Shown piece after piece: positions 20,979-56,605 of a stretch of DNA of 64,000 nucleotides. Position 1 is the stretch's first letter, and every line of letters begins with the position of its first letter. The position numbers were made by a program, and so were the translations under genes. The notes beneath the pieces were generated by a model. The model saw only the letters and a list, made by a program, of their open reading frames with translations. It ran no database searches and was not told the origin of the DNA. Source of the DNA: Fragilariopsis cylindrus CCMP1102 (Eukaryota > Bacillariophyta > Bacillariophyceae > Bacillariales > Bacillariaceae); assembly GCA_900095095.1 (NCBI GenBank), contig FMBT01000299.1, forward strand, positions 1 to 64,000. The letters run 5' to 3'.

Positions 20979-21435
20979 ATTCGATTTGTCTCACACTATT
21001 TTTTCTGAAGAAGAAGAGTTAAATATCACCAAGGAGTTATGATATAGATCGATATCAATACTGCACTACTTGTCTATGAATCCTTCTAACCCTAGACCGA
21101 AAACGATGAATTAGGAATCGTAATGATCATGTCATTTTGAGATGAAATCCATCGTTCAATCGTCGAATCGAAATCGTCAATCATTGTACATCTACGAAGT
21201 AACGTTAATGAATGGTTTAAAAATTGAGTCCCGCAAGAATGAAGCACGTACGTGTCGTTATCAATTATAAATCGAATCTTCAATATCGAAAAGCAGTTCT
21301 CATTTTTTGTTGGCTTGACGTTATTAAACTTCAGTTCATTATTGTCCGACCACATAAATGTCAACGTCTACACCGATTGTCATCTCGTCTTAGCTCGGCA
21401 GATTAATTGGAAATTAGGAAAGTAGGTGTAGCAAG
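20979..21435. promoter_or_regulatory. Divergent promoter region of RPC4 and PGM
   Basis: 457 bp between two start codons facing away from each other. No specific motif assigned. Confidence 0.4.
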
Positions 21436-23895: not shown

Positions 23896-24039
23896 TGTAA
23901 AAGTCTACAGTATTTTAAACTTTTCTATTAAAGATAAAATTAAATCATTATGCTACATGTACTACTATTAGGAGGAAACTTGCTCTATATGCGCTTGTCT
24001 GGTATAGAGTACGTCTATTACAAGGAGATATTGTGTTGA

Positions 24040-25686
24040 TTATACAATTCCAAGTATGCCAGGCTGAGGACTTACATCGCGCGCTTCGTCAATATGTTCC
24101 TCGAAATTAAACCTAGGTTCCTCGTACTCGTAATTTAACTTATATTCCTGATAGTCTAACCATTCCTGGTAATCTAACCATGTTGGCCGTCTTAAATCTT
24201 TGGCCAATAAGTGATGATTCCGACCCTTCGTTGCACCATCGTGTAGATTCAATTTCTTGGTAAACTCGTTAAATATAGGATTGTCAGATGCGACTATTTT
24301 ATAACCAGCTGTTTCATATAGATGAACCGCACCAACATTAGTTACGTCTACATGCAGATAAATTGTTTCGACGTCACGAATGTTCGCAACGTTATCAATA
24401 GCTTCTAGCATAAGCTTTGCAATCCCCTTTCTCCTATGTGTAGCATCGACCGCTACCTCAGTTATATACAAAATTGAGTCTTTAGGTCGAGTATAACCCA
24501 GTCCTGTTTCGGTAAATTCATGAAAACTTATCTCGGCTGTGCCTATAACGGGACCTTTTCCATCTTTCTTGTCTTCAGAATGTTTTGCAACGATACAATT
24601 AGCCCCTCTTTGCCTTCTCGTCGAAAGCAACTGACACGAACGGTCACAGAAAATTTTGAGAGATTCTGGAGTGAAATTTGAAAATACGGAAAGACGAAGA
24701 TTGGCAATATCAACATCATCCATATGTGACGCCATACGAACAATGGTATTATCAGAGGAACATTTTTTGTTTTTTGAAGGGGGGGATTTTTCGATCGACC
24801 TTGCCAGAATCGTACCAGCTTTCGGTATGTAATTGTAATTACAATACGCCGCCTCTGAATGAGTTGTTTCCCCAAATAGCCCCATCGATGTTGGTCCAGT
24901 GGATGGTTTCATCATGTCTTCAACTGTAGACTCAATCAGTGCCCTACAAGATTCTTCTAAAGATTTTCTTGGTAAATTATTATTATTATCATCATCGTCA
25001 TCGTCATAATCTACACCATTATTGTACGGTTTTAAATTTTCAAATGATTTCCTACCGCTTGATTTCTTATAGACATTTTTGGTTTCGAATCGAAGTTCGG
25101 ACCGAAGATCACGAAATAATCGATTCTTTGACCAACTGTCACCTATATTATTGATTACAGTTGTCATGTTACGATGCATCGAAGTACTAGTTGACTTGTT
25201 TCGGACCGGTCTACCTGTACCCAATTTCTCATTTCTTTTAAGTCTTTTTTCACTTCTTGGACTTTCTGTTACCTTAGTCGGGAATCGATGCGCATCACTA
25301 CCATCAAATGGTTGAATGCTGTATTTTTTTGTAGTCCCAGAGACGGCTGTATCAATATCAGTATCAATAGCAGCAGCAAGTTCAGCAAATTCTTTTTGTT
25401 TCAATTTTTTTATTTCTTGGTTGGAATATGGATTGTATTTTTCTCCAGTTTCGACTTTGTTGTTCTTGTTTGTTTCAATTTCTGTCAGTCGAAGCCGGAC
25501 GAAAGAAATCTCATCACGGTGATTATTTGTCGGAAATGCTACAGAAGAAGGAACAAAACATTGACTTTTCTCTACTAATAAAGTCAACGCGACGACCGCA
25601 AATGAGAATGAAAATATTGTCGATAGCCGATTCCAGTCTCGTAGACCTATTTTTCTCCGTGACGGTGTAGTTTGTACAGAATTCAT
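24040..25686 (-). CDS. GNAT-family N-acetyltransferase, predicted plastid
   Basis: One exon. I start at the ATG at 25686 (548 aa), because it places a hydrophobic signal segment (A-V-V-A-L-T-L-L-V) and the import motif S-Q-C-F-V-P at the N-terminus; an upstream start 43 codons earlier is less sensible. A long disordered Asn/Asp/Ser-rich region leads to the GNAT fold at about residues 310-500: V-G-T-A-E-like strand (V-I-G-T-A-E-I-S-F), I-T-E-V-A-V-D, the acetyl-CoA loop R-R-K-G-I-A-K, and L-H-V-D-V-T-N-V-G-A-V-H-L-Y-E-T-A-G-Y. The motif order is complete. The substrate is unknown; plastid GNATs are known to acetylate protein N-termini or lysines. Confidence 0.85.
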   Translation of the reverse strand: MNSVQTTPSRRKIGLRDWNRLSTIFSFSFAVVALTLLVEKSQCFVPSSVAFPTNNHRDEISFVRLRLTEIETNKNNKVETGEKYNPYSNQEIKKLKQKEFAELAAAIDTDIDTAVSGTTKKYSIQPFDGSDAHRFPTKVTESPRSEKRLKRNEKLGTGRPVRNKSTSTSMHRNMTTVINNIGDSWSKNRLFRDLRSELRFETKNVYKKSSGRKSFENLKPYNNGVDYDDDDDDNNNNLPRKSLEESCRALIESTVEDMMKPSTGPTSMGLFGETTHSEAAYCNYNYIPKAGTILARSIEKSPPSKNKKCSSDNTIVRMASHMDDVDIANLRLSVFSNFTPESLKIFCDRSCQLLSTRRQRGANCIVAKHSEDKKDGKGPVIGTAEISFHEFTETGLGYTRPKDSILYITEVAVDATHRRKGIAKLMLEAIDNVANIRDVETIYLHVDVTNVGAVHLYETAGYKIVASDNPIFNEFTKKLNLHDGATKGRNHHLLAKDLRRPTWLDYQEWLDYQEYKLNYEYEEPRFNFEEHIDEARDVSPQPGILGIV

Positions 25687-26295
25687 ATCGACAAGTATTA
25701 CTTTATTCTGTATAAGCTTAATGTAACGATTATACAGGTAGGGCGTATTGCTTATCGTTATACGGATTTTGGCGAGGCTAAGTAATATAATAGATCGAAT
25801 GAAGAATCGAATCAAGTTCGTTTCAAAAAAAAAATGTGTTATTCGATTTCTTTACTCAACAAAAGCAGATAAAACTGAAGGCGTTAACTCTCGCCTTCGC
25901 AACCCAATGTAGATGGCAAAGCAACATTCGAACGTAAATATGCTTTATTGTAAAGAATTTAGATGGAAGATCGAGACGGATGTGTGATGAGTGTGTTTTT
26001 CGTGTTTCCTCTTTCTTTATCATTATTATTTTGAGGAAGAGCGTGCATTATTTTATCAGACGACGACTGACGTGCTTTTGAGTGACACATAATGTAAAAG
26101 GGTATCTTTTTTAATTAGGGGTTTATGATGCCCCCAAATATCGATTCACACATCACTTTTCGTCCATCGTCAATAAATCGTCGATAAAAAATACCGGTAA
26201 TAACATATACACATGATTGATCATAACATTGGTTAATACATCTAACTTGTACACGACCTTTTTATCAAAAAAGAATAACAACAATTTGAAATACT
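25687..26295. promoter_or_regulatory. Divergent promoter region of the GNAT and aldo/keto reductase genes
   Basis: 609 bp, AT-rich, between two divergent start codons. No defined site assigned and no open frame worth calling. Confidence 0.4.
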
Positions 26296-27705
26296 ATGAG
26301 ATTAGGACTTGGAATGGCCGCACTTGGCAGACCGGGATATATCAATCTTGGTCGTGGGTCAGTTTTTGGAGGTTCCGATTCTCGATCTTTAGATATTATG
26401 CAAAATCAAGCTAATATTGTATTAGATTCTTTGTTCCAACAAAATGAAATACCATGGATCGATTGTGCTCGATCATATGGATTGAGTGAGAGATTTGTTG
26501 GTGAATATCTTAAGGAAAAAAATATCCAACCTGATGACGTGATTATTAGCAGCAAATGGGGATACAGTGAGTGTTGTGTCGAAGGGTGAAAGTTGGATAT
26601 ATATTAATTGGTTCCAATCTGAATACGACGTACTCTTCTTTTGAATACGATACTTCCTACTTGATATTATGCCTCATAATAAATAGTGACTTTTCCTTCT
26701 AAATAAATTCTCTACTCGTTTCTGATAGCTTATGTTGCTGATTGGAAAGTAAAACTGGAAGGTGGAAAACCACATGAAGTCAAAGATCATTCAGTAGAGG
26801 TAGGTCGGTATATCCGAATTCCGAATCTTAACGTGGATTGATTCAACTTTTTTTCTGTCGACGATATCTCTCATTCTAACGTTCATACTTCCCGATACTT
26901 AAATTCTATGTGACATATAACATTACCTCTGCTAGAACTTCTTAAAACAATTCGAAGAAACTATGAGTATCTTCGGGGATTATCTTAATCTGTATCAAAT
27001 ACATTCTGCAACATTTGAATCAGGTGTCTTAAATAACGACGAGGTTCATAAAGCTTTGCATCAATGTAGGAAGGACCATGGAATTTCTGTGGGCTTATCG
27101 GTATCGTCTCCTAAGCAAAATGAAGTCATTCAGAAAGCTATGAGTATTGAGGTTGATGGGATAAAACTCTTTGATTCAGTACAATGTACTTTCAATGTAC
27201 TTGAGCAACGACCAAAGTCAATCCTATTAAAAGCTCACGAGGCAGGTATAGATATTATCATCAAGGAGGGTATGGCGAACGGGAGAGTCCTGCAAAATCC
27301 AATCCTACTAGAATATTCAAAAACGCTTTCGTGTTCCTCTGATCAACTTGCTTTGGCATGTATTTTAGCACAACCGTTTCAACCTAGGGTACTTTCCGGA
27401 GGTAAGTAAATCACAAAAGCAACCGAATTTTTACCTTGATATTTTCCTTGACAATGAATTGAATTCAATCATTTTTACTTTGATAACACATCGACTTACA
27501 CGAATAATATCTGTCTGACCAATCCATCATTTATTTACGCTTCAATCTAGCCGTTACTCCAGAACAGCTAGAATCCAATTTAAAATCAGAGAAAATTGCA
27601 GAACAATTAATACAAGATCCTGATCTTCTCACAGAAATAATGGAAAAAACTTGTATGGATAGTGAAGAATACTGGTCAGAACGTTCTATGCTAGCTTGGA
27701 ATTAA
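26296..27705 (+). CDS. Aldo/keto reductase
   Basis: Four exons, 26296-26566, 26729-26799, 26936-27401 and 27551-27705, in frame, 320 aa. NAD(P)H-dependent oxidoreductase of the (beta/alpha)8 AKR type. The catalytic tetrad can be followed: D56 in W-I-D-C-A-R-S-Y, Y61, K87 in S-S-K-W-G-Y, and H137 in L-Y-Q-I-H-S. Later motifs (G-L-S-V-S-S-P-K, F-N-V-L-E-Q-R, G-I-D-I-I-I-K-E-G, Q-P-F-Q-P-R-V-L-S-G) fit the cofactor-binding half. No signal peptide is visible, so it is probably cytosolic. Substrate unknown. Confidence 0.88.
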
Positions 27706-27997
27706 TTACACGATATCACAAAACACGAATATATGACGGAACATAAAACATCACTTTTCCGATATAAATTATTACAAGGAACATGACTACTTTTTCCTTT
27801 CCTTTTCTTTTCTTTATTGGGTTTTATAATATATATTCAATATCGCATGAGGACTATCCACCTTCTTTCTTTTTCCATTTCAAGTCCGATATTTTATATC
27901 ATCACCCCACTCTATTCGAATAGTAAGAGCGTAATCTTTGAGAAGAAATTGGTAATGACGAAAGTCGCAGATATGTCATTTTTTCTTTTCTTTCTTC

Positions 27998-37208: not shown

Positions 37209-37533
37209 TTTAGGTTATCGTCGTGTACAAAAAGAAGACGAAATGGTGGCTCAAACTACAGAATTTATCCTTGAACTTGACAACCTAGCAAGGGAGTTTA
37301 TTCTAGGTATTGTTGTGGATGAGTAGAAGTAGACCGACAAGTTTAGAAGAGCCTCTCCTGCGTTTTATGAAAGTGATGTTAATAACGACGACGAGAGCAA
37401 GCTAACGTTGTTAGAGAGAATTTCTAAAATAAAAAATTAGATTTTATCGAAAAATCTCGAAAAAGGGGACAGATAAATAGAAAATGCATATTTCCCCAAA
37501 ATCACTTACAATGTACAATACAGTACAGTACTG
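37209..37533. other. Spacer between CWC25 and the tandem array
   Basis: 325 bp with the CWC25 promoter side. The last bases, 37527-37542, read AGTACTGTAGTAAGTT and form the left junction of the array. Confidence 0.6.
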
Positions 37534-37607
37534 TAGTAAGTTTTGGTTATCAAGTAGAAGCAAGTGTCGCGCGCGCCTAAGTAAATATTTGGCATGCGCC
37601 AAATATT
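37534..37607. other. Left attachment arm: TAGTA core, TCGCGCGCG and a 24-bp palindrome
   Basis: The core TAGTA is at 37534-37538. After exactly 28 bp comes TCGCGCGCG (37567-37575). Then a perfect palindrome (37584-37607) has 10-bp arms, AATATTTGGC and its complement, around ATGC; it contains GGCATGCGCC, which recurs as GGCACGCGCC near the right end. These are candidate recombinase binding sites. In copy 2 the palindrome arm and the 28-bp spacing are each disturbed by missing bases. Confidence 0.65.
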
Positions 37608-37693
37608 CTAAGTAAATAAAGCGGGTTAAAGTATTTCTATTAAATTAACTAGTTAAATCAACTAGCAATATTTCTGACTCGAACAACTGCAGA

Positions 37694-37807
37694 TATATAG
37701 CACAAAATCGCTATATAAATGCCCACGCCAACTCCGAACCACATGAAAAATACTGCATGGAGCACCTCTCCAGCGAGCGTACCCAGTAAATAGCACAAAA
37801 TTGCTAT
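37694..37807. repeat. Two related hairpins in the 3' flank of the recombinase gene
   Basis: 37694-37717: stem TATATAGC / GCTATATA with loop ACAAAATC. 37790-37807: shorter stem ATAGC / GCTAT with loop ACAAAATT. The loops differ by one base. Both are downstream of the stop codon on the transcribed strand, so they could be 3' UTR structures or 3' processing signals. Present in all three copies. Confidence 0.6.
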
Positions 37808-37983
37808 ATACGGTATGATGTCTCAATCCGATACACAAGGGTGATGGCAATGGGCTCATAACCTGTAGAGACGAAAAAAGTAAAATTCGTCGACTTGCAA
37901 TGAAAAATACAGTATTTACACACATTGATGGGCTTGAAAGATGAATGTGCTTGCATGTACAACATATATGAAAGAAGAACGTA

Positions 37984-40900
37984 TTATGAATGACGCCGAC
38001 GATAGTGTGTAGTAGAACGTGGTTGAGGTGGATTCTGTTCATACTGTAGTTGTTGATGATACGATCCGGAACCAGTTCTTGGTAGACGAGCATACTGTTG
38101 TGGAGGTTGTTGTGTAACCCGATTAGAATGAGATACTGAATATTCCATTTGATTGCCATGATCAGGTGAATAAGACATTCGAGCAACCCGTTCAGTTCTC
38201 TGTTCATAGATTGGTTCCTGTTGTGGAGGACGATAAGATCGACGAGCTTGTTCTTGTTGAGGAGCATCGTAAGGATCGTAGGGATCGTAATGAGAGTGCT
38301 GTTGTCGACGCGGAGGAGCAGGATGATACGACTGTTCTTCACGCTGTTGTTGTCGTAGAGATTGAATTTGGTCTTCAATAGCATCATGACCACGTGCAGG
38401 TGCACGATAATACTGTTGTGGTGGAGGAGACAGTTGTGGAGGATACGACTGTTCTCCACGCTGTCGTCGTCTCAGAGATTGAATTTGGTCTTCAATAGCA
38501 TCATGAGATCGTCTTGCACGATGATGGGGTGGAGAAGGTGCATGATAGGCATCACGTGCATGATATGGTTGCCGATGTGCTTCCTGTTGAAGTTGTAGAG
38601 GAGGCTGATATGGTTGCCTATGTGCTTCCTGTTGAAGTTGTAGAGGAGACTCGATACGCTGATGAAACACCTGTTTTTGTTGCTGTAGAAGAAGAATTTG
38701 GTCGTCAATAGACAATTTAGCATCAGGTGCAGACCGATGGGGTCGTTGGTGTACTAGCTGTTGTTTCGGTGGTGAAGACTTGATAATCGGAGCGAAAGCA
38801 CTAGCAGCAACAGCAGATTTCCGCTGTTCTGCTAGTTGAATGAGTTCTTCATAAGACATATCATCCGCAGATTTACTCCGTCCTTAAATAATAATTAACA
38901 TAAAAACATAAATATAGAAAAATGAGTTAGAAATAAGATATATATAGTGCATGACGATACAATCGGACCTCGTGCCTCAAGAGATGGCACTTCAGAATAC
39001 AGTATAGGATACATAGGGGGGTATGCAAGGTTACATAAGGAGACGTACCTCGATTGATAATAGGACCATTAAGAGAGTCAACCCGAGCAAAGCTTGTAGG
39101 TCGTGTAGTAGAATCAATGGTTCCATCGAAAGATGCAGGAGAATGAATGGTGTTGGTGTCGAACGGACATGGTTGTTGCAGTGGAATAGGAACAGACGAA
39201 CATCGTGGTTTATCCCCGGTGATTTGCGAGGCAGTAGTTCCTTGTACAGCCAAGCCTGCTCGAAGTTGATCTTCCATATTGGATTCGTGGTAGGTACCAG
39301 CGGACGTTTCGAGAGTAGAATGCCGAGTAGCACCCAACATGGTAGTAGGTCCACATCCTGAGTTACCAATCAAACTAATACCAGCCTTACGATTCCCTTG
39401 ACCAGTATTGGTTTTAGGATTGGTGTAGCCAAGGTCGGTAGCAAGACTAACACAAATAGGACTGTACTGATTTTCACCAATGACCATGGATGCATTTGGA
39501 TTCGCTCTCCAAGTACAGTCGTTCCCTATCAATGCTTTCCAATCCTAAATAAAGAAAGAATAAAAAATTAAAACAAAAAATTGGGAGTGAGATAATTGAA
39601 TTAAAAATTATAACATTCGATAATAACAACAGCATCTACAAGACCAACCAAGATACCCAACAAGAACAACGACAACATAAACAAAAATTTACTTACCTTG
39701 ATCTGTTTCGCGGATGCCTCTTTCCGAAAGATACGAGCTGGACCATGAATATGCTCATCCGGAGGAAGGAACTCATACAGTTGCCTTTTGATCATAGTAT
39801 ACGTATCAAACTTCTTGTTGGTCTTGAGGATAGGAAGGTGTTGCACATTCTTGAGATTATCAATTGCAGTATGATTAGAGATAGTGAGTGCTTTATTCTT
39901 CTGTCCAGAGTGATCAGATTTGAGACGACAGGCAGGAGTGCCTTTGAAATGACCTTCAGTGATAGTGAAGAACTCCCAGTTGTCGCGTACAATGTAGGCG
40001 GGTTCCTTAGCAGCCCGTAAGCAACAACAGACTTTGATTTCTTCAATAAGAACTCTGATATAGTTTGGGTAGTTGATGACATTCATCAACGCATCAAAGA
40101 CTTGAAACGGATGGAGTGGGTCTTCATGACAAGCGAGACGCTTCAATCGGAAGTTCACATCCCAAGTAGCCTCGTTGGGCTTGTGACCATACGTTGTATC
40201 GATTTCTTCGCAGACACCGAAGTTGCGCTTCCACCATGAACAGAATCCACCTTGATAGATATGAAAATAGATTTGCAAAATGAAGAAGCAACAATAACAT
40301 AATGTGAGATGAATCTATATATATAAGATAAAAGAACCGGCAGGCTGCTGAAAACAAACCCCATTCCATTGACAGGCGGGATGGTCGGATGGCTTGTTTC
40401 TAACAACCAGCCACTTATTCAGCTTGGTAACTGACCCTTAATAGCATGTTGCTTAGGGGGGCACAGGTGAAATAGAAACAAGTTGTTGTAGCAACGTCAT
40501 ACACACACATACGATACGACAAGACCACAACAACAACCACAACGACGACAATAATTAGAACATACCCTTTCCAAGAAAGTCTTTTGCAAGACTAAACATA
40601 ACTTGATTCGATTTGAATACGGCGAATAAGCATCTGAATGACTTGGCGACAGTGTTGGGTTGATATTGGGCTCTAACCAATGTACACTCATCAGTAAGAT
40701 CAACACCGACGAATGCTAGCTTGACAAATGATTTGGAGAACCATACCAAACAAGTATTCAAGATCTCGTAGTTGTCGCGAGTAATGACCCCTCTGCAGAA
40801 GATATATAACTGTCGTATCATAGTGTCAATGTGAGAGAGAGGATCCTTGACATACTTGGAGAGATGCTTGAGGGTCTCATTTGTCTGAAGAGAAGCAAAG

Positions 40901-42827
40901 AATCGAGCTTCAATCTGTAAATCGAATCGTAATAAAGTGGAGGAAGACGAAATTTTGTGAGACAAATGATATAAATAAAAAAGGATGACAAGTCAAAGCA
41001 TAACAACATGATATATTTACCTGAATCTTTGCTGTTTCATGCTTGTTTGTATTGGAAGTAAGACCCTTGATCATGTCGGTATCATCACCATAGATGTTAA
41101 CAGTCTTTTGCATCTTGCGAAGAAAATCACCGATTGGAATACTTCTATCGTCTGTAGCTCCATGAAATTCTTGTGCTTCTACAGGATCTAGAATAAACTG
41201 TGAAGGATCTTTGGATGGTGTTACAACAGCGACGGCTGTTGTAGTAGTAGTAGTAGTCGAAACGGACGCAGTAGTAGTAGTAGTAGGTGCGACGACTGTT
41301 GTTGTACCGGCTGTAGTCGAAACGGACGCAGTAGTAGTAGTAGGTGCGACGACTGTTGTTGTACCGGCTGTCGTTGTACCGGATGGACCCACAGTTGACA
41401 TAGATGCGCCGGTTGTGGTAGCAGCTGGAAAGGAGCCTGTTGTTGAATCGTGACCGGATGTGGTGGTAGTAGAAGCATCTGATGTGACGACAACAGATGA
41501 GGAGGTTGTGATTGGAATGGTGATTGGAGGGATGTAGGTGGTGGATGTATTCAAGACGGATGATGCAGTATCAATACCGGTAGCAGATCATGAATCCGAT
41601 GTAATATCCAAAGATTAATAATCGAAAATTGAAATAATAGATTGAAAATAAAGGAATGATAGAATCAAAATGTGAGCAAATAGAATTAGCAAAATCAAAA
41701 AAAATGATCGGTTTGCTCGGACACAGGATAATTAAGACAGTAACGCACCATTTGGGACGGATGTAGATAGTTGGCCTGGCAGTTGGACGGGCAGGACGTT
41801 TGTCGCAAGACTTGAGAGAGGCGCAACTGAAGATAGTGGTGCCGGTGCAATAGAAGCATTCGATGATTTGCGTGTTCTTTTCTTCATTTTGCTTGTATTA
41901 TTATTATTATTACTCTGATTAGTGCGAGAGGAATTGACCAACGGAGCAGGCTTCTTCTTCTTCGTATTCTTCTTCTTCGATGTAAGAGGTGGAGTAGGAG
42001 AAGCACAATGGCGTTGAGGCTTATTCCGAATGCGAGGAGGCAGTGTAGTCGCACCACGGAAGATATTGTTGAACGCATCTTCGTTGGTTAGAGGTAGAGC
42101 GTTGTCGTCATCTTGACAATCATCAGAATCGATATCATAGATATCAAATTCAGTATCAGAATCGATAGCAGAATCTTTCTTTTTAGATCGCGCCATGGTT
42201 GACGTATTTCTTTTATTAAAATAAATAGAATAATGAAGTAAAGAGTGTAGTTGATTAGATATTACAGAACCAAGGAATGAAAGAATGACAACATCGACAA
42301 CGACGACGACAAAGAAGACAACAAATAATTACCTTTTTCTGTCACGAATTGATTGAATGAAATCACAAGAATCTAGATCTTGATTGGTATCAGTTCCAGT
42401 ACAATCGCTGTCAATAAAGATTGAATGAATGAATGAAGAGGTGAGTGGGTGTTATGATGCGGATAATAGTATCGATTAGTATCGAATCACAATGACAATA
42501 CAGAATCGATATCAAATGGATAATAACTTACTCGTAACGAATAGATTGAGTTGATGAAGGAGTGACGCCGACGAATTCAACTGATGATGATGGAGATGGA
42601 GGAGGAGAGTTGGTGAGATCGCAATGAATAGGTTTACCATTGTGGAAAGAACAACCCTTATTTTTCCTAACTTGTTTTGTTTTTTTATCAGTAATAACAA
42701 TTTCGAAGTTGCCAGTCATAATAGAACCTTTCCAGCTAACGTCAGTGGTGCTAGCACTACTACAAGTACTACAAGTACAACAGCTAATGCATATAGAGCA
42801 GTCATCATCATCGTCGTCGACTTCCAT
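37984..42827 (-). CDS. Tyrosine recombinase-like protein of the element, copy 1
   Basis: Eight exons join in frame: 42827-42532, 42407-42333, 42209-41749, 41478-41021, 40914-40566, 40250-39697, 39544-39049 and 38882-37984. The sum is 3588 nt, or 1195 aa. Residues 10-22 hold six Cys behind an Asp run; residues 125-430 are basic and Thr/Val-rich, probably disordered. The recombinase part spans ~430-830: a helical N-domain (Q-Y-Q-P-N-T-V-A-K-S-F), then C-L-R625-A-A-K-E as box I, G-Q780-G-N-R783-K-A-G-I-S as box II, and R-H806-S-T-L-E-T-S-A-G-T-Y816. R783 to Y816 is 33 residues and H806 to Y816 is ten, as in this superfamily. Gln replaces the usual His of H-x-x-R. Residues ~897-1195 are Gln/Pro/Tyr-rich with internal repeats. 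Exon borders are predicted; the intron 3 acceptor at 41479-41480 is the first AG available. Confidence 0.7.
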
Positions 42828-43255
42828 GGTTCAATTTGCTAACGAATTGTAATATTTGTAACGTACCAGTTATTAGTAGTGTTTGCTTTTGGAGTGTGGA
42901 AAATATTATTTATGAGACCTACTACTAGTACTATCTAGTAAAAAAAAATCACTGCAAGAAACACTGCATAAAAGATTATTTTGAAAATAAGCCGTACTAT
43001 TACCGGTGAGAGAGGATGACAGGTCAAATATTGCAATCGTGTGATCTTATATAGGAAAACTCTCGTGTGAATGAATATTTGAAAATATGCTTAAGTATTG
43101 AGAACTGTCCACGGTTTGAAACACGAATTGAATTTTTGTTAAACCTGTCAATCAACGCCAGCGTCTAAGTACCAAGACATACGACATTCAATCTTCTAAA
43201 TAAACTTGTCGCACTGAACTAAGACATGAAATACTGACACGTGCTCAAGCGAGTA

Positions 43256-43554
43256 TACTTTTTTGGAAATACACACGCATTTACTAGTTAAAAGCTTATT
43301 TTTAGTCCTGATAGCTCAATTTTTTAGAAATACTTGCACGCGCTCCAAAATAAAATACTTTTTTTGGAAATACACACGCATTTACTAGTTAAAAGCTTAT
43401 TTTTAGTCCTGATAGCTCAATTTTTTAGAAATACTTGCACGTGCACCAAAAAAATACTTTTTTGGAAATACACACGCATTTACTAGTTAAAAGCTTATTT
43501 TTAGTTCTCCTCAATCCATTTTTTTAAGAAATACTTGCACGTGCACCAAAAAAA
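43256..43554. repeat. Three ~100-bp direct repeats near the 5' end of the element
   Basis: Units start at 43256, 43356 and 43455, with the first bases of a fourth at 43555. Each holds ACACACGCATTTACTAGTT, an AAGCTT site and a CTTGCACG-type motif; the last two units have TGCACGTGCA. The third unit is the most diverged (its TCCTGATAGCTC segment is changed). The same block lies at 49603-49901 in copy 2 and 55962-56260 in copy 3. TTAACTAGTTAA near the other end (about 37,641) echoes the ACTAGTTAA part. Candidate promoter or recombinase-binding iterons. Confidence 0.8.
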
Positions 43555-43769
43555 TACTTTTTCTTCACAAGATCACGCAAATATCTACTAGTCAACTGAG
43601 ATGCCGATTTGCGCTTACGACTTGTAACTTCTACTCGATCACCAAAACTAACACAAGTACCCCCCATACTCCCTAACTCCAACTCGATACAGCAATGGAA
43701 AGACTTGTGTCCATACTGGCTTTGACTTGGACTCGTTTGGCCAAGAATGCCTTCACTCTTCCTCGTCAA
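43524..43769 (-). CDS. Possible small protein upstream of the recombinase gene (81 aa)
   Basis: An open frame ends inside the third 100-bp repeat. It has a basic stretch S-R-K-R-K-S-A-S-Q-L-T-S and no known domain. The equivalent frames in copies 2 and 3 start four codons later, with a different beginning, because copy 1 lacks one A at a run near 43,746. Conservation is uninformative in such young copies. It could be a short leader frame or chance. Confidence 0.2.
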   Translation of the reverse strand: MTRKSEGILGQTSPSQSQYGHKSFHCCIELELGSMGGTCVSFGDRVEVTSRKRKSASQLTSRYLRDLVKKKYFFGARASIS

Positions 43770-43823
43770 AGTCCAGTATTACCACGCGTCTTTCCATTTC
43801 GGTATACTCGTTGTCGTATTTTC

Positions 43824-43898
43824 GGCACGCGCCACTCGTCTAACGACTCGTGTCATCGCGCGCGAAAAAAACGTGAGCATAGGGGAGTACTAATAGTA
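43824..43898. other. Right attachment arm and first internal junction
   Basis: GGCACGCGCC (43824-43833), then TCGCGCGCGA (43856-43865), then exactly 28 bp to the core TAGTA (43894-43898). With the preceding bases the core forms TACTA-A-TAGTA (43888-43898), a dyad around one A. The next unit begins at this core. The same layout is at 50242-50246, and the right arm ends the array at 56601-56605. Confidence 0.65.
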
Positions 43899-46800
43899 AG
43901 TTTGGTTATCAAGTAGAAGCAAGTGTCGCGCGCGCCTAAGTAATATTGGCATGCGCCAAATATTCTAAGTAAATAAAGCGGGTTAAAGTATTTCTATTAA
44001 ATTAACTAGTTAAATCAACTAGCAATATTTCTGACTCGAACAACTGCAGATATATAGCACAAAATCGCTATATAAATGCCACGCCAACTCCGAACCACAT
44101 GAAAATACTGCATGGAGCACCTCTCCAGCGAGCGTACCCAGTAAATAGCACAAAATTGCTATATACGGTATGATGTCTCAATCCGATACACAAGGGTGAT
44201 GGCAATGGGCTCATAACCTGTAGAGACGAAAAAAGTAAAATTTGTCGACTTGCAATGAAAAATACAGTATTTACACACATTGATGGGCTTGAAGATGAAT
44301 GTGCTTGCATGTACAACATATATGAAAGAAGAACGTATTATGAATGACGCCGACGATAGTGTGTAGTAGAACGTGGTTGAGGTGGATTCTGTTCATACTG
44401 TAGTTGTTGATGATACGATCCGGAACCAGTTCTTGGTAGACGAGCATACTGTTGTGGAGGTTGTTGTGTAACCCGATTAGAATGAGATACTGAATATTCC
44501 ATTTGATTGCCATGATCAGGTGAATAAGACATTCGAGCAACCCGTTCAGTTCTCTGTTCATAGATTGGTTCCTGTTGTGGAGGACGATAAGATCGACGAG
44601 CTTGTTCTTGTTGAGGAGCATCGTAAGGATCGTAGGGATCGTAATGAGAGTGCTGTTGTCGACGCGGAGGAGCAGGATGATACGACTGTTTCTTCACGCT
44701 GTTGTTGTCGTAGAGATTGAATTTGGTCTTCAATAGCATCATGACCACGTGCAGGTGCACGATAATACTGTTGTGGTGGAGGAGACAGTTGTGGAGGATA
44801 CGACTGTTCTCCACGCTGTCGTCGTCTCAGAGATTGAATTTGGTCTTCAATAGCATCATGAGATCGTCTTGCACGATGATGGGGTGGAGAAGGTGCATGA
44901 TAGCATCACGTGCATGATATGGTTGCCGATGTGCTTCCTGTTGAAGTTGTAGAGGAGGCTGATATGGTTGCCTATGTGCTTCCTGTTGAAGTTGTAGAGG
45001 AGACTCGATACGCTGATGAAACACCTGTTTTTGTTGCTGTAGAAGAAGAATTTGGTCGTCAATAGACAATTTAGCATCAGGTGCAGACCGATGGGGTCGT
45101 TGGTGTACTAGCTGTTGTTTCGGTGGTGAAGACTTGATAATCGGAGCGAAAGCACTAGCAGCAACAGCAGATTTCCGCTGTTCTGCTAGTTTGAATGAGT
45201 TCTTCATAAGACATATCATCCGCAGATTTACTCCGTCCTTAAATAATAATTAACATAAAAACATAAATATAGAAAATGAGTTAGAATAAGATATATATAG
45301 TGCATGACGATACAATCGGACCTCGTGCCTCAAGAGATGCACTTCAGAATACAGTATAGGATACATAGGGGGGTATGCAAGGTTACATAAGGAGACGTAC
45401 CTCGATTGATAATAGGACCATTAAGAGAGTCAACCCGAGCAAAGCTTGTAGGTCGTGTAGTAGAATCAATGGTTCCATCGAAAGATGCAGGAGAATGAAT
45501 GGTGTTGGTGTCGAACGGACATGGTTGTTGCAGTGGAATAGGAACAGACGAACATCGTGGTTTATCCCCGGTGATTTGCGAGGCCAGTAGTTCCTTGTAC
45601 AGCCAAGCCTGCTCGAAGTTGATCTTCCATATTGGATTCGTGGTAGTACCAGCGGACGTTTCGAGAGTAGAATGCCGAGTAGCACCCAACATGGTAGTAA
45701 GGTCCACATCCTGAGTTACCAATCAACTAATACCAGCCTTACAATTCCCTTGACCAGTATTGGTTTTAGGATTGGTGTAGCCAAGGTCGGTAGCAAGACT
45801 AACACAAATAGGACTGTACTGATTTTCACCAATGACCATGGATGCATTTGGATTCGCTCTCCAAGTACAGTCGTTCCCTATCAATGCTTTCCAATCCTAA
45901 ATAAAGAAAGAATAAAAAATTAAAACAAAAATTGGGAGTGAGATAATTGAATTAAAAATTATAACATTCGATAATAACAACAGCATCTACAAGACCAACC
46001 AAGATACCCAACAAGAACAACGACAACATAAACAAAAAATTTACTTACCTTGATCTGTTTCGCGGATGCCTCTTTCCGAAAGATACGAGCTGGACCCATG
46101 AATATGCTCATCCGGAGGAAGAACTCATACAGTTGCCTTTGATCATAGTATACGTATCAAACTTCTTGTTGGTCTTGAGGATAGGAAGGTGTTGCACATT
46201 CTTGAGATTATCAATTGCAGTATGATTAGAGATAGTGAGTGCTTATTTCTTCTGTCCAGAGTGATCAGATTTGAGACGACAGGCAGGAGTGCCTTTGAAA
46301 TGACCTTCAGTGATAGTGAAGAACTCCCAGTTGTCGCGTACAATGTAGGCGGGTTCCTTAGCAGCCCGTAAGCAACAACAGACTTTGATTTCTTCAATAA
46401 GAACTCTGATATAGTTTGGGTAGTTGATGACATTCATCAACGCATCAAAGACTTGAAACGGATGGAGTGGGTCTTCATGACAAGCGAGACGCTTCAATCG
46501 GAAGTTCACATCCCAAGTAGCCTCGTTGGGCTTGTGACCATACGTTGTATCGATTTCTTCGCAGACACCGAAGTTGCGCTTCCACCATGAACAGAATCCA
46601 CCTTGATAGATATGAAAATAGATTTGCAAAATGAAGAAGCAACAATAACATAATGTGAGATGAATCTATATATATAAGATAAAAGAACCGGCAGGCTGCT
46701 GAAAACAAACCCCATTCCATTGACAGGCGGGATGGTCGGATGGCTTGTTTCTAACAACCAGCCACTTATTCAGCTTGGTAACTGACCCTTAATAGCATGT

Positions 46801-49800
46801 TGCTTAGGGGGGCACAGGTGAAATAGAAACAAGTTGTTGTAGCAACGTCATACACACACATACGATACGACAAGACCACAACAACAACCACAACGACGAC
46901 AATAATTAGAACATACCCTTTCCAAGAAAGTCTTTTGCAAGACTAAACATAACTTGATTCGATTTGAATACGGCGAATAAGCATCTGAATGACTTGGCGA
47001 CAGTGTTGGGTTGATATTGGGCTCTAACCAATGTACACTCATCAGTAAGATCAACACCGACGAATGCTAGCTTGACAAATGATTTGGAGAACCATACCAA
47101 ACAAGTATTCAAGATCTCGTAGTTGTCGCGAGTAATGACCCCTCTGCAGAAGATATATAACTGTCGTATCATAGTGTCAATGTGAGAGAGAGGATCCTTG
47201 ACATACTTGGAGAGATGCTTGAGGGTCTCATTTGTCTGAAGAGAAGCAAAGAATCGAGCTTCAATCTGTAAATCGAATCGTAATAAAGTGGAGGAAGACG
47301 AAATTTTGTGAGACAAATGATATAAATAAAAAAGGATGACAAGTCAAAGCATAACAACATGATATATTTACCTGAATCTTTGCTGTTTCATGCTTGTTTG
47401 TATTGGAAGTAAGACCCTTGATCATGTCGGTATCATCACCATAGATGTTAACAGTCTTTTGCATCTTGCGAAGAAAATCACCGATTGGAATACTTCTATC
47501 GTCTGTAGCTCCATGAAATTCTTGTGCTTCTACAGGATCTAGAATAAACTGTGAAGGATCTTTGGATGGTGTTACAACAGCGACGGCTGTTGTAGTAGTA
47601 GTAGTAGTCGAAACGGACGCAGTAGTAGTAGTAGTAGGTGCGACGACTGTTGTTGTACCGGCTGTAGTCGAAACGGACGCAGTAGTAGTAGTAGGTGCGA
47701 CGACTGTTGTTGTACCGGCTGTCGTTGTACCGGATGGACCCACAGTTGACATAGATGCGCCGGTTGTGGTAGCAGCTGGAAAGGAGCCTGTTGTTGAATC
47801 GTGACCGGATGTGGTGGTAGTAGAAGCATCTGATGTGACGACAACAGATGAGGAGGTTGTGATTGGAATGGTGATTGGAGGGATGTAGGTGGTGGATGTA
47901 TTCAAGACGGATGATGCAGTATCAATACCGGTAGCAGATCATGAATCCGATGTAATATCCAAAGATTAATAATCGAAAATTGAAATAATAGATTGAAAAT
48001 AAAGGAATGATAGAATCAAAATGTGAGCAAATAGAATTAGCAAAATCAAAAAAATGATCGGTTTGCTCGGACACAGGATAATTAAGACAGTAACGCACCA
48101 TTTGGGACGGATGTAGATAGTTGGCCTGGCAGTTGGACGGGCAGGACGTTTGTCGCAAGACTTGAGAGAGGCGCAACTGAAGATAGTGGTGCCGGTGCAA
48201 TAGAAGCATTCGATGATTTGCGTGTTCTTTTCTTCATTTTGCTTGTATTATTATTATTATTACTCTGATTAGTGCGAGAGGAATTGACCAACGGAGCAGG
48301 CTTCTTCTTCTTCGTATTCTTCTTCTTCGATGTAAGAGGTGGAGTAGGAGAAGCACAATGGCGTTGAGGCTTATTCCGAATGCGAGGAGGCAGTGTAGTC
48401 GCACCACGGAAGATATTGTTGAACGCATCTTCGTTGGTTAGAGGTAGAGCGTTGTCGTCATCTTGACAATCATCAGAATCGATATCATAGATATCAAATT
48501 CAGTATCAGAATCGATAGCAGAATCTTTCTTTTTAGATCGCGCCATGGTTGACGTATTTCTTTTATTAAAATAAATAGAATAATGAAGTAAAGAGTGTAG
48601 TTGATTAGATATTACAGAACCAAGGAATGAAAGAATGACAACATCGACAACGACGACGACAAAGAAGACAACAAATAATTACCTTTTTCTGTCACGAATT
48701 GATTGAATGAAATCACAAGAATCTAGATCTTGATTGGTATCAGTTCCAGTACAATCGCTGTCAATAAAGATTGAATGAATGAATGAAGAGGTGAGTGGGT
48801 GTTATGATGCGGATAATAGTATCGATTAGTATCGAATCACAATGACAATACAGAATCGATATCAAATGGATAATAACTTACTCGTAACGAATAGATTGAG
48901 TTGATGAAGGAGTGACGCCGACGAATTCAACTGATGATGATGGAGATGGAGGAGGAGAGTTGGTGAGATCGCAATGATAGGTTTACCATTGTGGAAAGAA
49001 CAACCCTTATTTTTCCTAACTTGTTTTGTTTTTTTATCAGTAATAACAATTTCGAAGTTGCCAGTCATAATAGAACCTTTCCAGCTAACGTCAGTGGTGC
49101 TAGCACTACTACAAGTACTACAAGTACAACAGCTAATGCATATAGAGCAGTCATCATCATCGTCGTCGACTTCCATGGTTCAATTTGCTAACGAATTGTA
49201 ATATTTGTAACGTACCAGTTATTAGTAGTGTTTGCTTTTGGAGTGTGGAAAATATTATTTATGAGACCTACTACTAGTACTATCTAGTAAAAAAAATCAC
49301 TGCAAGAAACACTGCATAAAGATTATTTTGAAAATAAGCCGTACTATTACCGGTGAGAGAGGATGACAGGTCAAATATTGCAATCGTGTGATCTTATATA
49401 GGAAAACTCTCGTGTGAATGAATATTTGAAAATATGCTTAAGTATTGAGAACTGTCCACGGTTTGAAACACGAATTGAATTTTTGTTAAACCTGTCAATC
49501 AACGCCAGCGTCTAAGTACCAAGACATACGACATTCAATCTTCTAAATAAACTTGTCGCACTGAACTAAGACATGAAATACTGACACGTGCTCAAGCGAG
49601 TATACTTTTTTGGAAATACACACGCATTTACTAGTTAAAAGCTTATTTTTAGTCCTGATAGCTCAATTTTTTAGAAATACTTGCACGCGCTCCAAAATAA
49701 AATACTTTTTTTGGAAATACACACGCATTTACTAGTTAAAAGCTTATTTTTAGTCCTGATAGCTCAATTTTTTAGAAATACTTGCACGTGCACCAAAAAA

Positions 49801-50246
49801 ATACTTTTTTGGAAATACACACGCATTTACTAGTTAAAAGCTTATTTTTAGTTCTCCTCAATCCATTTTTTTAAGAAATACTTGCACGTGCACCAAAAAA
49901 ATACTTTTTCTTCACAAGATCACGCAAATATCTACTAGTCAACTGAGATGCCGATTTGCGCTTACGACTTGTAACTTCTACTCGATCACCAAAACTAACA
50001 CAAGTACCCCCCATACTCCCTAACTCCAACTCGATACAGCAATGGAAAGACTTGTGTCCATACTGGCTTTGACTTGGACTCGTTTGGCCAAGAAATGCCT
50101 TCACTCTTCCTCGTCAAAGTCCAGTATTACCACGCGTCTTTCCATTTCGGTATACTCGTTGTCGTATTTTCGGCACGCGCCACTCGTCTAACGACTCGTG
50201 TCATCGCGCGCGAAAAAAACGTGAGCATAGGGGAGTACTAATAGTA
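43894..50246 (-). mobile_element. Crypton-like element, copy 2
   Basis: 6348 bp unit between TAGTA cores at 43894-43898 and 50242-50246. It is identical in plan to copy 1. Many one-base losses and gains, mostly in short homopolymers, lie in its first 2.4 kb (43,900-46,260) and only a few beyond that. This uneven spread without matching substitutions looks like an unpolished stretch of long-read consensus rather than biological decay. Confidence 0.72.
44338..49176 (-). pseudogene. Recombinase gene of copy 2, frame disrupted
   Basis: Same eight-exon gene. The frame is lost at several single-base indels, mainly in the last three exons (those for the recombinase C-terminal half and the Gln-rich tail) and once in exon 1. 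The codon for catalytic Arg783 reads TGT (Cys) instead of CGT, through a G to A change at 45743. Middle exons (46,270-48,550) match copy 1 exactly as far as I can see. Whether the gene is truly broken depends on whether these indels are real. Confidence 0.55.
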
Positions 50247-53200
50247 AGTTTTGGTTATCAAGTAGAAGCAAGTGTCGCGCGCGCCTAAGTAAATATTTGG
50301 CATGCGCCAAATATTCTAAGTAAATAAAGCGGGTTAAAGTATTTCTATTAAATTAACTAGTTAAATCAACTAGCAATATTTCTGACTCGAACAACTGCAG
50401 ATATATAGCACAAAATCGCTATATAAATGCCCACGCCAACTCCGAACCACATGAAAAATACTGCATGGAGCACCTCTCCAGCGAGCGTACCCAGTAAATA
50501 GCACAAAATTGCTATATACGGTATGATGTCTCAATCCGATACACAAGGGTGATGGCAATGGGCTCATAACCTGTAGAGACGAAAAAAGTAAAATTCGTCG
50601 ACTTGCAATGAAAAATACAGTATTTACACACATTGATGGGCTTGAAAGATGAATGTGCTTGCATGTACAACATATATGAAAGAAGAACGTATTATGAATG
50701 ACGCCGACGATAGTGTGTAGTAGAACGTGGTTGAGGTGGATTCTGTTCATACTGTAGTTGTTGATGATACGATCCGGAACCAGTTCTTGGTAGACGAGCA
50801 TACTGTTGTGGAGGTTGTTGTGTAACCCGATTAGAATGAGATACTGAATATTCCATTTGATTGCCATGATCAGGTGAATAAGACATTCGAGCAACCCGTT
50901 CAGTTCTCTGTTCATAGATTGGTTCCTGTTGTGGAGGACGATAAGATCGACGAGCTTGTTCTTGTTGAGGAGCATCGTAAGGATCGTAGGGATCGTAATG
51001 AGAGTGCTGTTGTCGACGCGGAGGAGCAGGATGATACGACTGTTCTTCACGCTGTTGTTGTCGTAGAGATTGAATTTGGTCTTCAATAGCATCATGACCA
51101 CGTGCAGGTGCACGATAATACTGTTGTGGTGGAGGAGACAGTTGTGGAGGATACGACTGTTCTCCACGCTGTCGTCGTCTCAGAGATTGAATTTGGTCTT
51201 CAATAGCATCATGAGATCGTCTTGCACGATGATGGGGTGGAGAAGGTGCATGATAGGCATCACGTGCATGATATGGTTGCCGATGTGCTTCCTGTTGAAG
51301 TTGTAGAGGAGGCTGATATGGTTGCCTATGTGCTTCCTGTTGAAGTTGTAGAGGAGACTCGATACGCTGATGAAACACCTGTTTTTGTTGCTGTAGAAGA
51401 AGAATTTGGTCGTCAATAGACAATTTAGCATCAGGTGCAGACCGATGGGGTCGTTGGTGTACTAGCTGTTGTTTCGGTGGTGAAGACTTGATAATCGGAG
51501 CGAAAGCACTAGCAGCAACAGCAGATTTCCGCTGTTCTGCTAGTTGAATGAGTTCTTCATAAGACATATCATCCGCAGATTTACTCCGTCCTTAAATAAT
51601 AATTAACATAAAAACATAAATATAGAAAAATGAGTTAGAAATAAGATATATATAGTGCATGACGATACAATCGGACCTCGTGCCTCAAGAGATGGCACTT
51701 CAGAATACAGTATAGGATACATAGGGGGGTATGCAAGGTTACATAAGGAGACGTACCTCGATTGATAATAGGACCATTAAGAGAGTCAACCCGAGCAAAG
51801 CTTGTAGGTCGTGTAGTAGAATCAATGGTTCCATCGAAAGATGCAGGAGAATGAATGGTGTTGGTGTCGAACGGACATGGTTGTTGCAGTGGAATAGGAA
51901 CAGACGAACATCGTGGTTTATCCCCGGTGATTTGCGAGGCAGTAGTTCCTTGTACAGCCAAGCCTGCTCGAAGTTGATCTTCCATATTGGATTCGTGGTA
52001 GGTACCAGCGGACGTTTCGAGAGTAGAATGCCGAGTAGCACCCAACATGGTAGTAGGTCCACATCCTGAGTTACCAATCAAACTAATACCAGCCTTACAT
52101 TCCCTTGACCAGTATTGGTTTTAGGATTGGTGTAGCCAAGGTCGGTAGCAAGACTAACACAAATAGGACTGTACTGATTTTCACCAATGACCATGGATGC
52201 ATTTGGATTCGCTCTCCAAGTACAGTTGTTCCCTATCAATGCTTTCCAATCCTAAATAAAGAAAGAATAAAAAATTAAAACAAAAAATTGGGAGTGAGAT
52301 AATTGAATTAAAAATTATAACATTCGATAATAACAACAGCATCTACAAGACCAACCAAGATACCCAACAAGAACAACGACAACATAAACAAAAATTTACT
52401 TACCTTGATCTGTTTCGCGGATGCCTCTTTCCGAAAGATACGAGCTGGACCATGAATATGCTCATCCGGAGGAAGGAACTCATACAGTTGCCTTTTGATC
52501 ATAGTATACGTATCAAACTTCTTGTTGGTCTTGAGGATAGGAAGGTGTTGCACATTCTTGAGATTATCAATTGCAGTATGATTAGAGATAGTGAGTGCTT
52601 TATTCTTCTGTCCAGAGTGATCAGATTTGAGACGACAGGCAGGAGTGCCTTTGAAATGACCTTCAGTGATAGTGAAGAACTCCCAGTTGTCGCGTACAAT
52701 GTAGGCGGGTTCCTTAGCAGCCCGTAAGCAACAACAGACTTTGATTTCTTCAATAAGAACTCTGATATAGTTTGGGTAGTTGATGACATTCATCAATGCA
52801 TCAAAGACTTGAAACGGATGGAGTGGGTCTTCATGACAAGCGAGACGCTTCAATCGGAAGTTCACATCCCAAGTAGCCTCGTTGGGCTTGTGACCATACG
52901 TTGTATCGATTTCTTCGCAGACACCAAAGTTGCGCTTCCACCATGAACAGAATCCACCTTGATAGATATGAAAATAGATTTGCAAAATGAAGAAGCAACA
53001 ATAACATAATGTGAGATGAATCTATATATATAAGATAAAAGAACCGGCAGGCTGCTGAAAACAAACCCCATTCCATTGACAGGCGGGATGGTCGGATGGC
53101 TTGTTTCTAACAACCAGCCACTTATTCAGCTTGGTAACTGACCCTTAATAGCATGTTGCTTAGGGGGGCACAGGTGAAATAGAAACAAGTTGTTGTAGCA

Positions 53201-56200
53201 ACGTCATACACACACATACGATACGACAAGACCACAACAACAACCACAACGACGACAATAATTAGAACATACCCTTTCCAAGAAAGTCTTTTGCAAGACT
53301 AAACATAACTTGATTCGATTTGAATACGGCGAATAAGCATCTGAATGACTTGGCGACAGTGTTGGGTTGATATTGGGCTCTAACCAATGTACACTCATCA
53401 GTAAGATCAACACCGACGAATGCTAGCTTGACAAATGATTTGGAGAACCATACCAAACAAGTATTCAAGATCTCGTAGTTGTCGCGAGTAATGACCCCTC
53501 TGCAGAAGATATATAACTGTCGTATCATAGTGTCAATGTGAGAGAGAGGATCCTTGACATACTTGGAGAGATGCTTGAGGGTCTCATTTGTCTGAAGAGA
53601 AGCAAAGAATCGAGCTTCAATCTGTAAATCGAATCGTAATAAAGTGGAGGAAGACGAAATTTTGTGAGACAAATGATATAAATAAAAAAGGATGACAAGT
53701 CAAAGCATAACAACATGATATATTTACCTGAATCTTTGCTGTTTCATGCTTGTTTGTATTGGAAGTAAGACCCTTGATCATGTCGGTATCATCACCATAG
53801 ATGTTAACAGTCTTTTGCATCTTGCGAAGAAAATCACCGATTGGAATACTTCTATCGTCTGTAGCTCCATGAAATTCTTGTGCTTCTACAGGATCTAGAA
53901 TAAACTGTGAAGGATCTTTGGATGGTGTTACAACAGCGACGGCTGTTGTAGTAGTAGTAGTAGTCGAAACGGACGCAGTAGTAGTAGTAGTAGGTGCGAC
54001 GACTGTTGTTGTACCGGCTGTAGTCGAAACGGACGCAGTAGTAGTAGTAGGTGCGACGACTGTTGTTGTACCGGCTGTCGTTGTACCGGATGGACCCACA
54101 GTTGACATAGATGCGCCGGTTGTGGTAGCAGCTGGAAAGGAGCCTGTTGTTGAATCGTGACCGGATGTGGTGGTAGTAGAAGCATCTGATGTGACGACAA
54201 CAGATGAGGAGGTTGTGATTGGAATGGTGATTGGAGGGATGTAGGTGGTGGATGTATTCAAGACGGATGATGCAGTATCAATACCGGTAGCAGATCATGA
54301 ATCCGATGTAATATCCAAAGATTAATAATCGAAAATTGAAATAATAGATTGAAAATAAAGGAATGATAGAATCAAAATGTGAGCAAATAGAATTAGCAAA
54401 ATCAAAAAAAATGATCGGTTTGCTCGGACACAGGATAATTAAGACAGTAACGCACCATTTGGGACGGATGTAGATAGTTGGCCTGGCAGTTGGACGGGCA
54501 GGACGTTTGTCGCAAGACTTGAGAGAGGCGCAACTGAAGATAGTGGTGCCGGTGCAATAGAAGCATTCGATGATTTGCGTGTTCTTTTCTTCATTTTGCT
54601 TGTATTATTATTATTATTACTCTGATTAGTGCGAGAGGAATTGACCAACGGAGCAGGCTTCTTCTTCTTCGTATTCTTCTTCTTCGATGTAAGAGGTGGA
54701 GTAGGAGAAGCACAATGGCGTTGAGGCTTATTCCGAATGCGAGGAGGCAGTGTAGTCGCACCACGGAAGATATTGTTGAACGCATCTTCGTTGGTTAGAG
54801 GTAGAGCGTTGTCGTCATCTTGACAATCATCAGAATCGATATCATAGATATCAAATTCAGTATCAGAATCGATAGCAGAATCTTTCTTTTTAGATCGCGC
54901 CATGGTTGACGTATTTCTTTTATTAAAATAAATAGAATAATGAAGTAAAGAGTGTAGTTGATTAGATATTACAGAACCAAGGAATGAAAGAATGACAACA
55001 TCGACAACGACGACGACAAAGAAGACAACAAATAATTACCTTTTTCTGTCACGAATTGATTGAATGAAATCACAAGAATCTAGATCTTGATTGGTATCAG
55101 TTCCAGTACAATCGCTGTCAATAAAGATTGAATGAATGAATGAAGAGGTGAGTGGGTGTTATGATGCGGATAATAGTATCGATTAGTATCGAATCACAAT
55201 GACAATACAGAATCGATATCAAATGGATAATAACTTACTCGTAACGAATAGATTGAGTTGATGAAGGAGTGACGCCGACGAATTCAACTGATGATGATGG
55301 AGATGGAGGAGGAGAGTTGGTGAGATCGCAATGAATAGGTTTACCATTGTGGAAAGAACAACCCTTATTTTTCCTAACTTGTTTTGTTTTTTTATCAGTA
55401 ATAACAATTTCGAAGTTGCCAGTCATAATAGAACCTTTCCAGCTAACGTCAGTGGTGCTAGCACTACTACAAGTACTACAAGTACAACAGCTAATGCATA
55501 TAGAGCAGTCATCATCATCGTCGTCGACTTCCATGGTTCAATTTGCTAACGAATTGTAATATTTGTAACGTACCAGTTATTAGTAGTGTTTGCTTTTGGA
55601 GTGTGGAAAATATTATTTATGAGACCTACTACTAGTACTATCTAGTAAAAAAAAATCACTGCAAGAAACACTGCATAAAAGATTATTTTGAAAATAAGCC
55701 GTACTATTACCGGTGAGAGAGGATGACAGGTCAAATATTGCAATCGTGTGATCTTATATAGGAAAATCTCGTGTGAATGAATATTTGAAAATATGCTTAA
55801 GTATTGAGAACTGTCCACGGTTTGAAACACGAATTGAATTTTTGTTAAACCTGTCAATCAACGCCAGCGTCTAAGTACCAAGACATACGACATTCAATCT
55901 TCTAAATAAACTTGTCGCACTGAACTAAGACATGAAATACTGACACGTGCTCAAGCGAGTATACTTTTTTGGAAATACACACGCATTTACTAGTTAAAAG
56001 CTTATTTTTAGTCCTGATAGCTCAATTTTTTAGAAATACTTGCACGCGCTCCAAAATAAAATACTTTTTTTGGAAATACACACGCATTTACTAGTTAAAA
56101 GCTTATTTTTAGTCCTGATAGCTCAATTTTTTAGAAATACTTGCACGTGCACCAAAAAAATACTTTTTTGGAAATACACACGCATTTACTAGTTAAAAGC

Positions 56201-56605
56201 TTATTTTTAGTTCTCCTCAATCCATTTTTTTAAGAAATACTTGCACGTGCACCAAAAAAATACTTTTTCTTCACAAGATCACGCAAATATCTACTAGTCA
56301 ACTGAGATGCCGATTTGCGCTTACGACTTGTAACTTCTACTCGATCACCAAAACTAACACAAGTACCCCCCATACTCCCTAACTCCAACTCGATACAGCA
56401 ATGGAAAGACTTGTGTCCATACTGGCTTTGACTTGGACTCGTTTGGCCAAGAAATGCCTTCACTCTTCCTCGTCAAAGTCCAGTATTACCACGCGTCTTT
56501 CCATTTCGGTATACTCGTTGTCGTATTTTCGGCACGCGCCACTCGTCTAACGACTCGTGTCATCGCGCGCGAAAAAAACGTGAGCATAGGGGAGTACTAA
56601 TAGTA
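50242..56605 (-). mobile_element. Crypton-like element, copy 3
   Basis: 6359 bp unit between TAGTA at 50242-50246 and 56601-56605, which is also the right end of the array. Compared with copy 1 it has three CpG transitions (52227, 52797, 52926), one base missing at 52098/52099, one missing base near 55,768 and one extra A near 56,454. To the right the host sequence TTAATATG follows the core. Confidence 0.72.
50692..55534 (-). pseudogene. Recombinase gene of copy 3, one frame slip at the catalytic Arg codon
   Basis: Exons at 55534-55239, 55114-55040, 54916-54456, 54185-53728, 53621-53273, 52957-52404, 52251-51757 and 51590-50692. All are as in copy 1 except for a single missing base between 52098 and 52099, inside the Arg783 codon, which shifts exon 7. 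The 52227 change gives Asp740 to Asn; the other two substitutions are silent. If the missing base is an assembly error, this copy is as complete as copy 1. Confidence 0.55.

Follow-up and report, generated by a model that had tools for sequence, protein, structure and literature searches.

The window analysed here, 64 000 nucleotides of contig C306 of the diatom Fragilariopsis cylindrus CCMP1102, contains three head-to-tail units at 37534-56605, with the sequence TAGTA at 37534, 43894, 50242 and 56601. This arrangement, together with the dissimilarity between the two outer flanks of the array, had been described in the original prediction, and both were confirmed in the assembly sequence. The units are 6360, 6348 and 6359 bases long (units 1, 2 and 3, respectively) and carry a recombinase-like gene on the minus strand, the exons of which were modelled from GT..AG borders in the sequence, as well as upstream coding segments that may belong to one gene or to two (Table 1). 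No terminal inverted repeat was found in the unit. A 101-base sequence is repeated in tandem, in approximately three copies, close to the right end of unit 1 (43255-43562) and at the corresponding position in units 2 and 3, and repeated matches were likewise seen in this region of the related copies on C297, C90, C139 and C688. A palindromic stretch, ATATTTGGCATGCGCCAAATAT, was recognized by eye close to the unit's left end (37575-37620), and a similar one occurs in a second family of elements, family B.

Table 1. Positions in the window of the array units, their borders and their coding segments
Feature	Position	Strand	Remarks
Unit 1	37534..43893	- (gene strand)	Putative recombinase exons 1-3 intact
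Unit 2	43894..50241	-	Exons 2 and 3 frame-shifted
Unit 3, including terminal TAGTA	50242..56605	-	Exon 3 frame-shifted
Left border	37529..37538	+	Host target TACTGTAGTA (TAY-N4-GTA) kept
Start of element proper at left border	37536		First base of GTA
Unit 1/unit 2 joint	43888..43898	+	TACTAATAGTA (TAY-N5-GTA), then left end of unit 2
Unit 2/unit 3 joint	50236..50246	+	TACTAATAGTA, then left end of unit 3
Right end of array	56595..56605	+	TACTAATAGTA, then host TTAATATG
Exon 1 (unit 1)	40566..40914	-	Conserved in families B and C
Exon 2 (unit 1)	39697..40250	-	First catalytic Arg and Lys
Exon 3 (unit 1)	39049..39544	-	Q/HxxR, RH and Tyr
Exon 4 (unit 1)	37984..38882	-	C-terminal part, Gln/Pro-rich
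Upstream coding segments	41021..42826 (about 42826-42531, 42210-41740, 41580-41021)	-	Conserved in other copies

Comparison of the units revealed 3 substitutions and 3 indel positions between units 1 and 3, and 6 substitutions and 26 indel positions between units 1 and 2, where alignment shifts account for 4 of the 6 substitutions. Unit 2 has 25 indel positions that the other units do not share; by manual count, 23 of them fall in, or create, runs of at least two equal bases, which is the pattern of uncorrected long-read errors, and true divergence was rejected as their explanation on the basis of this run-length pattern. As the unit 2 indels bear this mark, the true divergence among the units is probably near 0.1 % or less. 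The frame-shifts in exons 2 and 3 of unit 2 are probably residual sequencing errors, and sequencing error may be the cause of the broken exons of units 2 and 3 in general.

The genome searched for relatives was a 67.9-Mb assembly of 818 contigs, some of which look, from their sequence, like allelic pairs; the silicon-transporter family PF03842 gave 27 matches in this assembly and none above the cut-off in any of 14 control genomes, a result that points to a diatom genome. Four parts of the unit were used as DNA queries, and the resulting copy counts are lower bounds. Other copies, which the original prediction had proposed as a check, were indeed present, as single full-length relatives on C297 (285129-291491) and C90 (551714-558181) and as short derivatives with both ends on C139 and C688 (all family A). 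More diverged elements formed family B (C462, C464, C635, C254, C530 and others) and family C (C79, C61, C813 and C112).

Over its whole length, each of the copies on C297 and C90 is only 87-89 % like the window unit, yet the two do not differ from each other in 1050 bases of exons 2 and 3, a finding that suggests a common source or gene conversion. A 1.9-kb upstream segment (window positions 41300-43200) is 76-80 % alike in C79, C813, C112, C61 and C303, whereas the recombinase exons of the same families are far more diverged or lie outside the match, as if the element families had exchanged modules. On C61 (approximately 20072-27916), a family C element is split by an insert of approximately 7.8 kb between 399-base direct repeats, which start with TGTTG, are 99.7 % alike and resemble retrotransposon long terminal repeats.

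Comparison of the copies defined the ends of the element as GTAAGTTTTG (left) and GTACTWATAGTA (right) in family A, GTAATTTT and GTTATTATAAGTA in family B, and GTAGTCCGACG and GTAATACATATAGTA in family C. The only sequence common to left and right ends is GTA, a short terminal direct repeat that is fixed rather than variable. A short core shared by both ends had been predicted and was found, but as GTA instead of TAGTA; the longer core was rejected, as the other four family A left ends share GTA only. The TA preceding GTA at the left border of the window can be read as host sequence, because it is lacking from the left ends of C297, C90, C139 and C688. Both internal joints of the array coincide exactly with the element ends.

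Insertion occurred next to a preferred host motif. The trinucleotide TAC or TAT, at positions -7 to -5 relative to GTA, was first noticed in eight of nine left flanks, and was then present in all six flanks with an intact GTA that were examined afterwards. These later left ends were C530, C575, C91, C278, C144, C79 and C61, with C91 and C144 read by eye and C144 set aside owing to the loss of its GTA. Altogether, 14 of the 15 left flanks that could be scored carried TAY-N4-GTA (C462 being the single exception, and the two internal array joints being excluded), compared to 47 of 1350 GTA sites on both strands of the host part of the window; the corresponding binomial value (6e-20) also covers the nine flanks from which the motif was spotted. 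A T at position -4 was seen in 11 of the 15, and the spacer ahead of GTA was variable and host-like in all 15. At the right ends, TAY-N5-GTA was found in 16 of 17, with a spacer that is the element's own in 16 of 17; C303 lacks the last bases. The right ends comprised the window, C297, C90, C139 and C688 from family A, along with C462, C464, C635, C254, C530, C303, C79, C61, C813, C112, C439 and C213, and they are not all independent, because C61, C813 and C112 are near-identical and C439 and C213 share the same flank.

Joined flanks of seven occupied loci were used to search for empty sites. A homologous unoccupied stretch was present elsewhere in the assembly for four loci (C139, 89 % identity; C90, 77 %; C462, 82 %; C635, 81 %), and none was found in the assembly for C297, C254 or the window locus, the flanks of which occur only once. 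One stretch was readable at the core: the C139 empty site, located on C313, reads TTTGTATGAAG with a single GTA, and the occupied borders read TTTTGTA (left) and TATAGTATGAAG (right). Thus, the predicted empty site with one core exists for C139 but not, within this assembly, for the window. The core could not be read for C90, C462 and C635 because the bases around the site differ, though the flanks match; the divergent bases in these stretches (C271:37440-37800, C434:14420-14620 and C254:8950-9170) could be excision scars or plain allelic divergence. The array unit is a mobile element, and plain segmental duplication was ruled out by the other copies, the exact ends and the empty site.

The gene carried by the element shares 54, 54 and 40 % identity with families B and C in exons 1, 2 and 3, respectively. 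Five residues (Arg195, Lys227, Arg353, His376 and Tyr386 in the numbering of the first row) were invariant in all four rows of the alignment, and at position 350 family A has Gln in place of the His of HxxR, which families B and C retain. Arg353 and His376 are 23 residues apart, and His376 and Tyr386 are 10 apart (9 in two rows). Both the order, GLRxxKE, K, H/QxxR, H and Y, and the spacing are close to those of the XerD catalytic residues. In searches of Pfam, PHROG and PDB with the exons and the four-sequence alignment, the matches listed were few and weak and included no recombinase family, the Pfam matches being below the Pfam cut-offs where stated. An hhalign comparison of the alignment with a profile of 81 XerD sequences gave best probabilities of 0.3 and 0.2, and 60 shuffled controls reached up to 1.58, above the real alignment. 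AlphaFold2 models of single exons, run without an alignment, were unusable (mean pLDDT 37.7 and 38.8), and none of 66 pattern matches in viral contigs was confirmed as a relative. As neither the databases nor the XerD profile gave support, it is from the residues that we infer a tyrosine recombinase; the original assignment to this class is therefore backed by the pattern R, K, H/Q-x-x-R, H, Y in three families, but not by profiles.

Furthermore, the gene is under purifying selection. Simple counts for exons 1-3 gave 29 differences from C297 that are silent and 2 that are replacements, and 21 silent and 2 replacement differences from C90 in exons 2 and 3 (C90 exon 1, which is split by a frame change, was left out), although the two counts are not independent, because these two copies do not differ in exons 2 and 3.

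Taken together, we consider that the array is probably a DNA transposon with a tyrosine recombinase and a Crypton-like way of life, present in three copies. The exact ends, the one-GTA empty site and the fixed target argue for the site-specific entry of a circle. The recombinase would excise the element in circular form, with the joined ends expected to read TAC-TAATA-GTA-AGTTTT, as the array joints do; the full circle joint predicted from the element ends, TACTAATAGTAAGTTTT, equals the array joint. This circle would recombine with a host TAY-N4-GTA; the sites and products are seen in the sequence, and a crossover in GTA is the proposed chemistry. The host motif is complete at the left end of the element, which supplies its own TAY-N5-GTA to the right end. 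Further circles could use the same site again, or the similar right end, generating head-to-tail copies with one core per joint. Stacking would be explained by insertion keeping the target whole and so re-usable. The self-targeting stack originally proposed thus fits the ends and the re-usable site, but has no locus-specific empty allele in the assembly.

The sequence does not distinguish between the stepwise entry of circles, the entry of a multimer and unequal exchange at a later time. One insertion, site-specific or otherwise, followed by growth through unequal homologous exchange or slippage appears unlikely to us: conversion or exchange is possible between units that are nearly identical, and two copies can yield a third by exchange, but the first doubling would require exchange at borders sharing TAGTA only, and the joints are exact element ends. 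A single integration of a circle already in dimeric or trimeric form, which would produce such joints and units with hardly any differences, is improbable, as no circle of any size was seen and the sequence does not separate this event from stepwise entry.

We attach as little weight to the copy number being an assembly artefact, for which the error-like single-base indels of unit 2 and the single occurrence of the flanks could be cited, as a few substitutions separate the units and both joints coincide exactly with the element ends. That the element is real but is moved by an enzyme other than a tyrosine recombinase is decidedly unlikely. The lack of support from profiles, PDB and hhalign speaks for this possibility; against it are the residues GLRxxKE, K, H/QxxR, H (23 residues on) and Y (a further 9-10 residues on) in the order of XerD, the absence of a terminal inverted repeat and a direct repeat that is fixed as GTA.

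Other stacks were sought through their joints. The family A joint, with one mismatch allowed, was found twice in C306 and once in C704, where TACT is missing. The family B joint gave no exact match and 12 one-mismatch matches, compared to 7 for the reversed control. The DNA searches with parts of the unit and the searches with the family A and B joints revealed one array only, although every left end keeps the target. This speaks against the favoured reading, as do the lack of support from databases, the XerD profile and structure models, the Gln in place of the His of HxxR, the failure to see an empty allele or a circle for the window locus, and the unreadable core at three of the four loci with an unoccupied stretch. 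Stacks may be short-lived, perhaps because the same recombinase could remove units.

A more far-reaching and doubtful proposal is that these elements form a lineage of their own among eukaryotic recombinase transposons, distinct from the known Cryptons, and insert with fixed polarity behind TAY-N4-GTA. The host-like left spacers and the element's own right spacers show no sign of the mixing that would be expected of a 5-8 base heteroduplex, and this would point to either a very short overlap or a one-strand exchange of the integron kind. If such a lineage exists, its target would survive each insertion and arrays could grow.

Kojima and Jurka (2011, PMC3212892) wrote that Crypton transposition had not been studied up to that time. 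A single diatom genome now offers three related families whose ends are clean, together with a clear target motif, an empty site and a gene under selection. The tandem joint predicts the circle sequence to the base, which makes the mechanism testable, and diatoms gain a candidate recombinase gene. The survival of the target after insertion would also provide a simple reason for the stacking of such elements. Among the titles and abstract openings covered, no description of tandem Crypton arrays, or of this element in diatoms, was found.

The element resembles CryptonS, the Cryptons of stramenopiles including the diatom Phaeodactylum (PMC3212892), in its stramenopile host, its tyrosine-recombinase-like gene, its lack of terminal inverted repeats and the short direct repeat at its ends, and CryptonS is likewise thought to move as a circle. 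It differs in having a three-base repeat, GTA, and a TAY-N4-GTA target, whereas CryptonS ends are described in that source as terminal repeats of 5-6 bp, mostly TATGG; such repeats were not found at the element ends. No C48 peptidase, a further point of comparison with CryptonS, was present in the 13 element segments scanned. Pfam gave no match to the GCR1_C domain of CryptonF in the segments scanned, none to the Crypton-derived DUF3504 at E up to 10 in any of the four alignment members, and none to the DIRS/Ngaro reverse transcriptase in the scanned segments, which cover part of the unit frames. The element is therefore Crypton-like by its end structure, and membership in the Cryptons proper is unproven because the CryptonS ends are not present.

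Bacterial islands such as SGI1 that use a tyrosine recombinase also integrate in tandem, head to tail, at an attachment site (PMC2297512). The array described here differs in being built from a eukaryotic DNA element with a short, common target in place of one special site. Integron cassettes form head-to-tail arrays of fixed polarity with a three-base crossover motif at each joint. The diatom array shares this fixed polarity and the repetition of a three-base motif at its joints, but each element carries its own gene.
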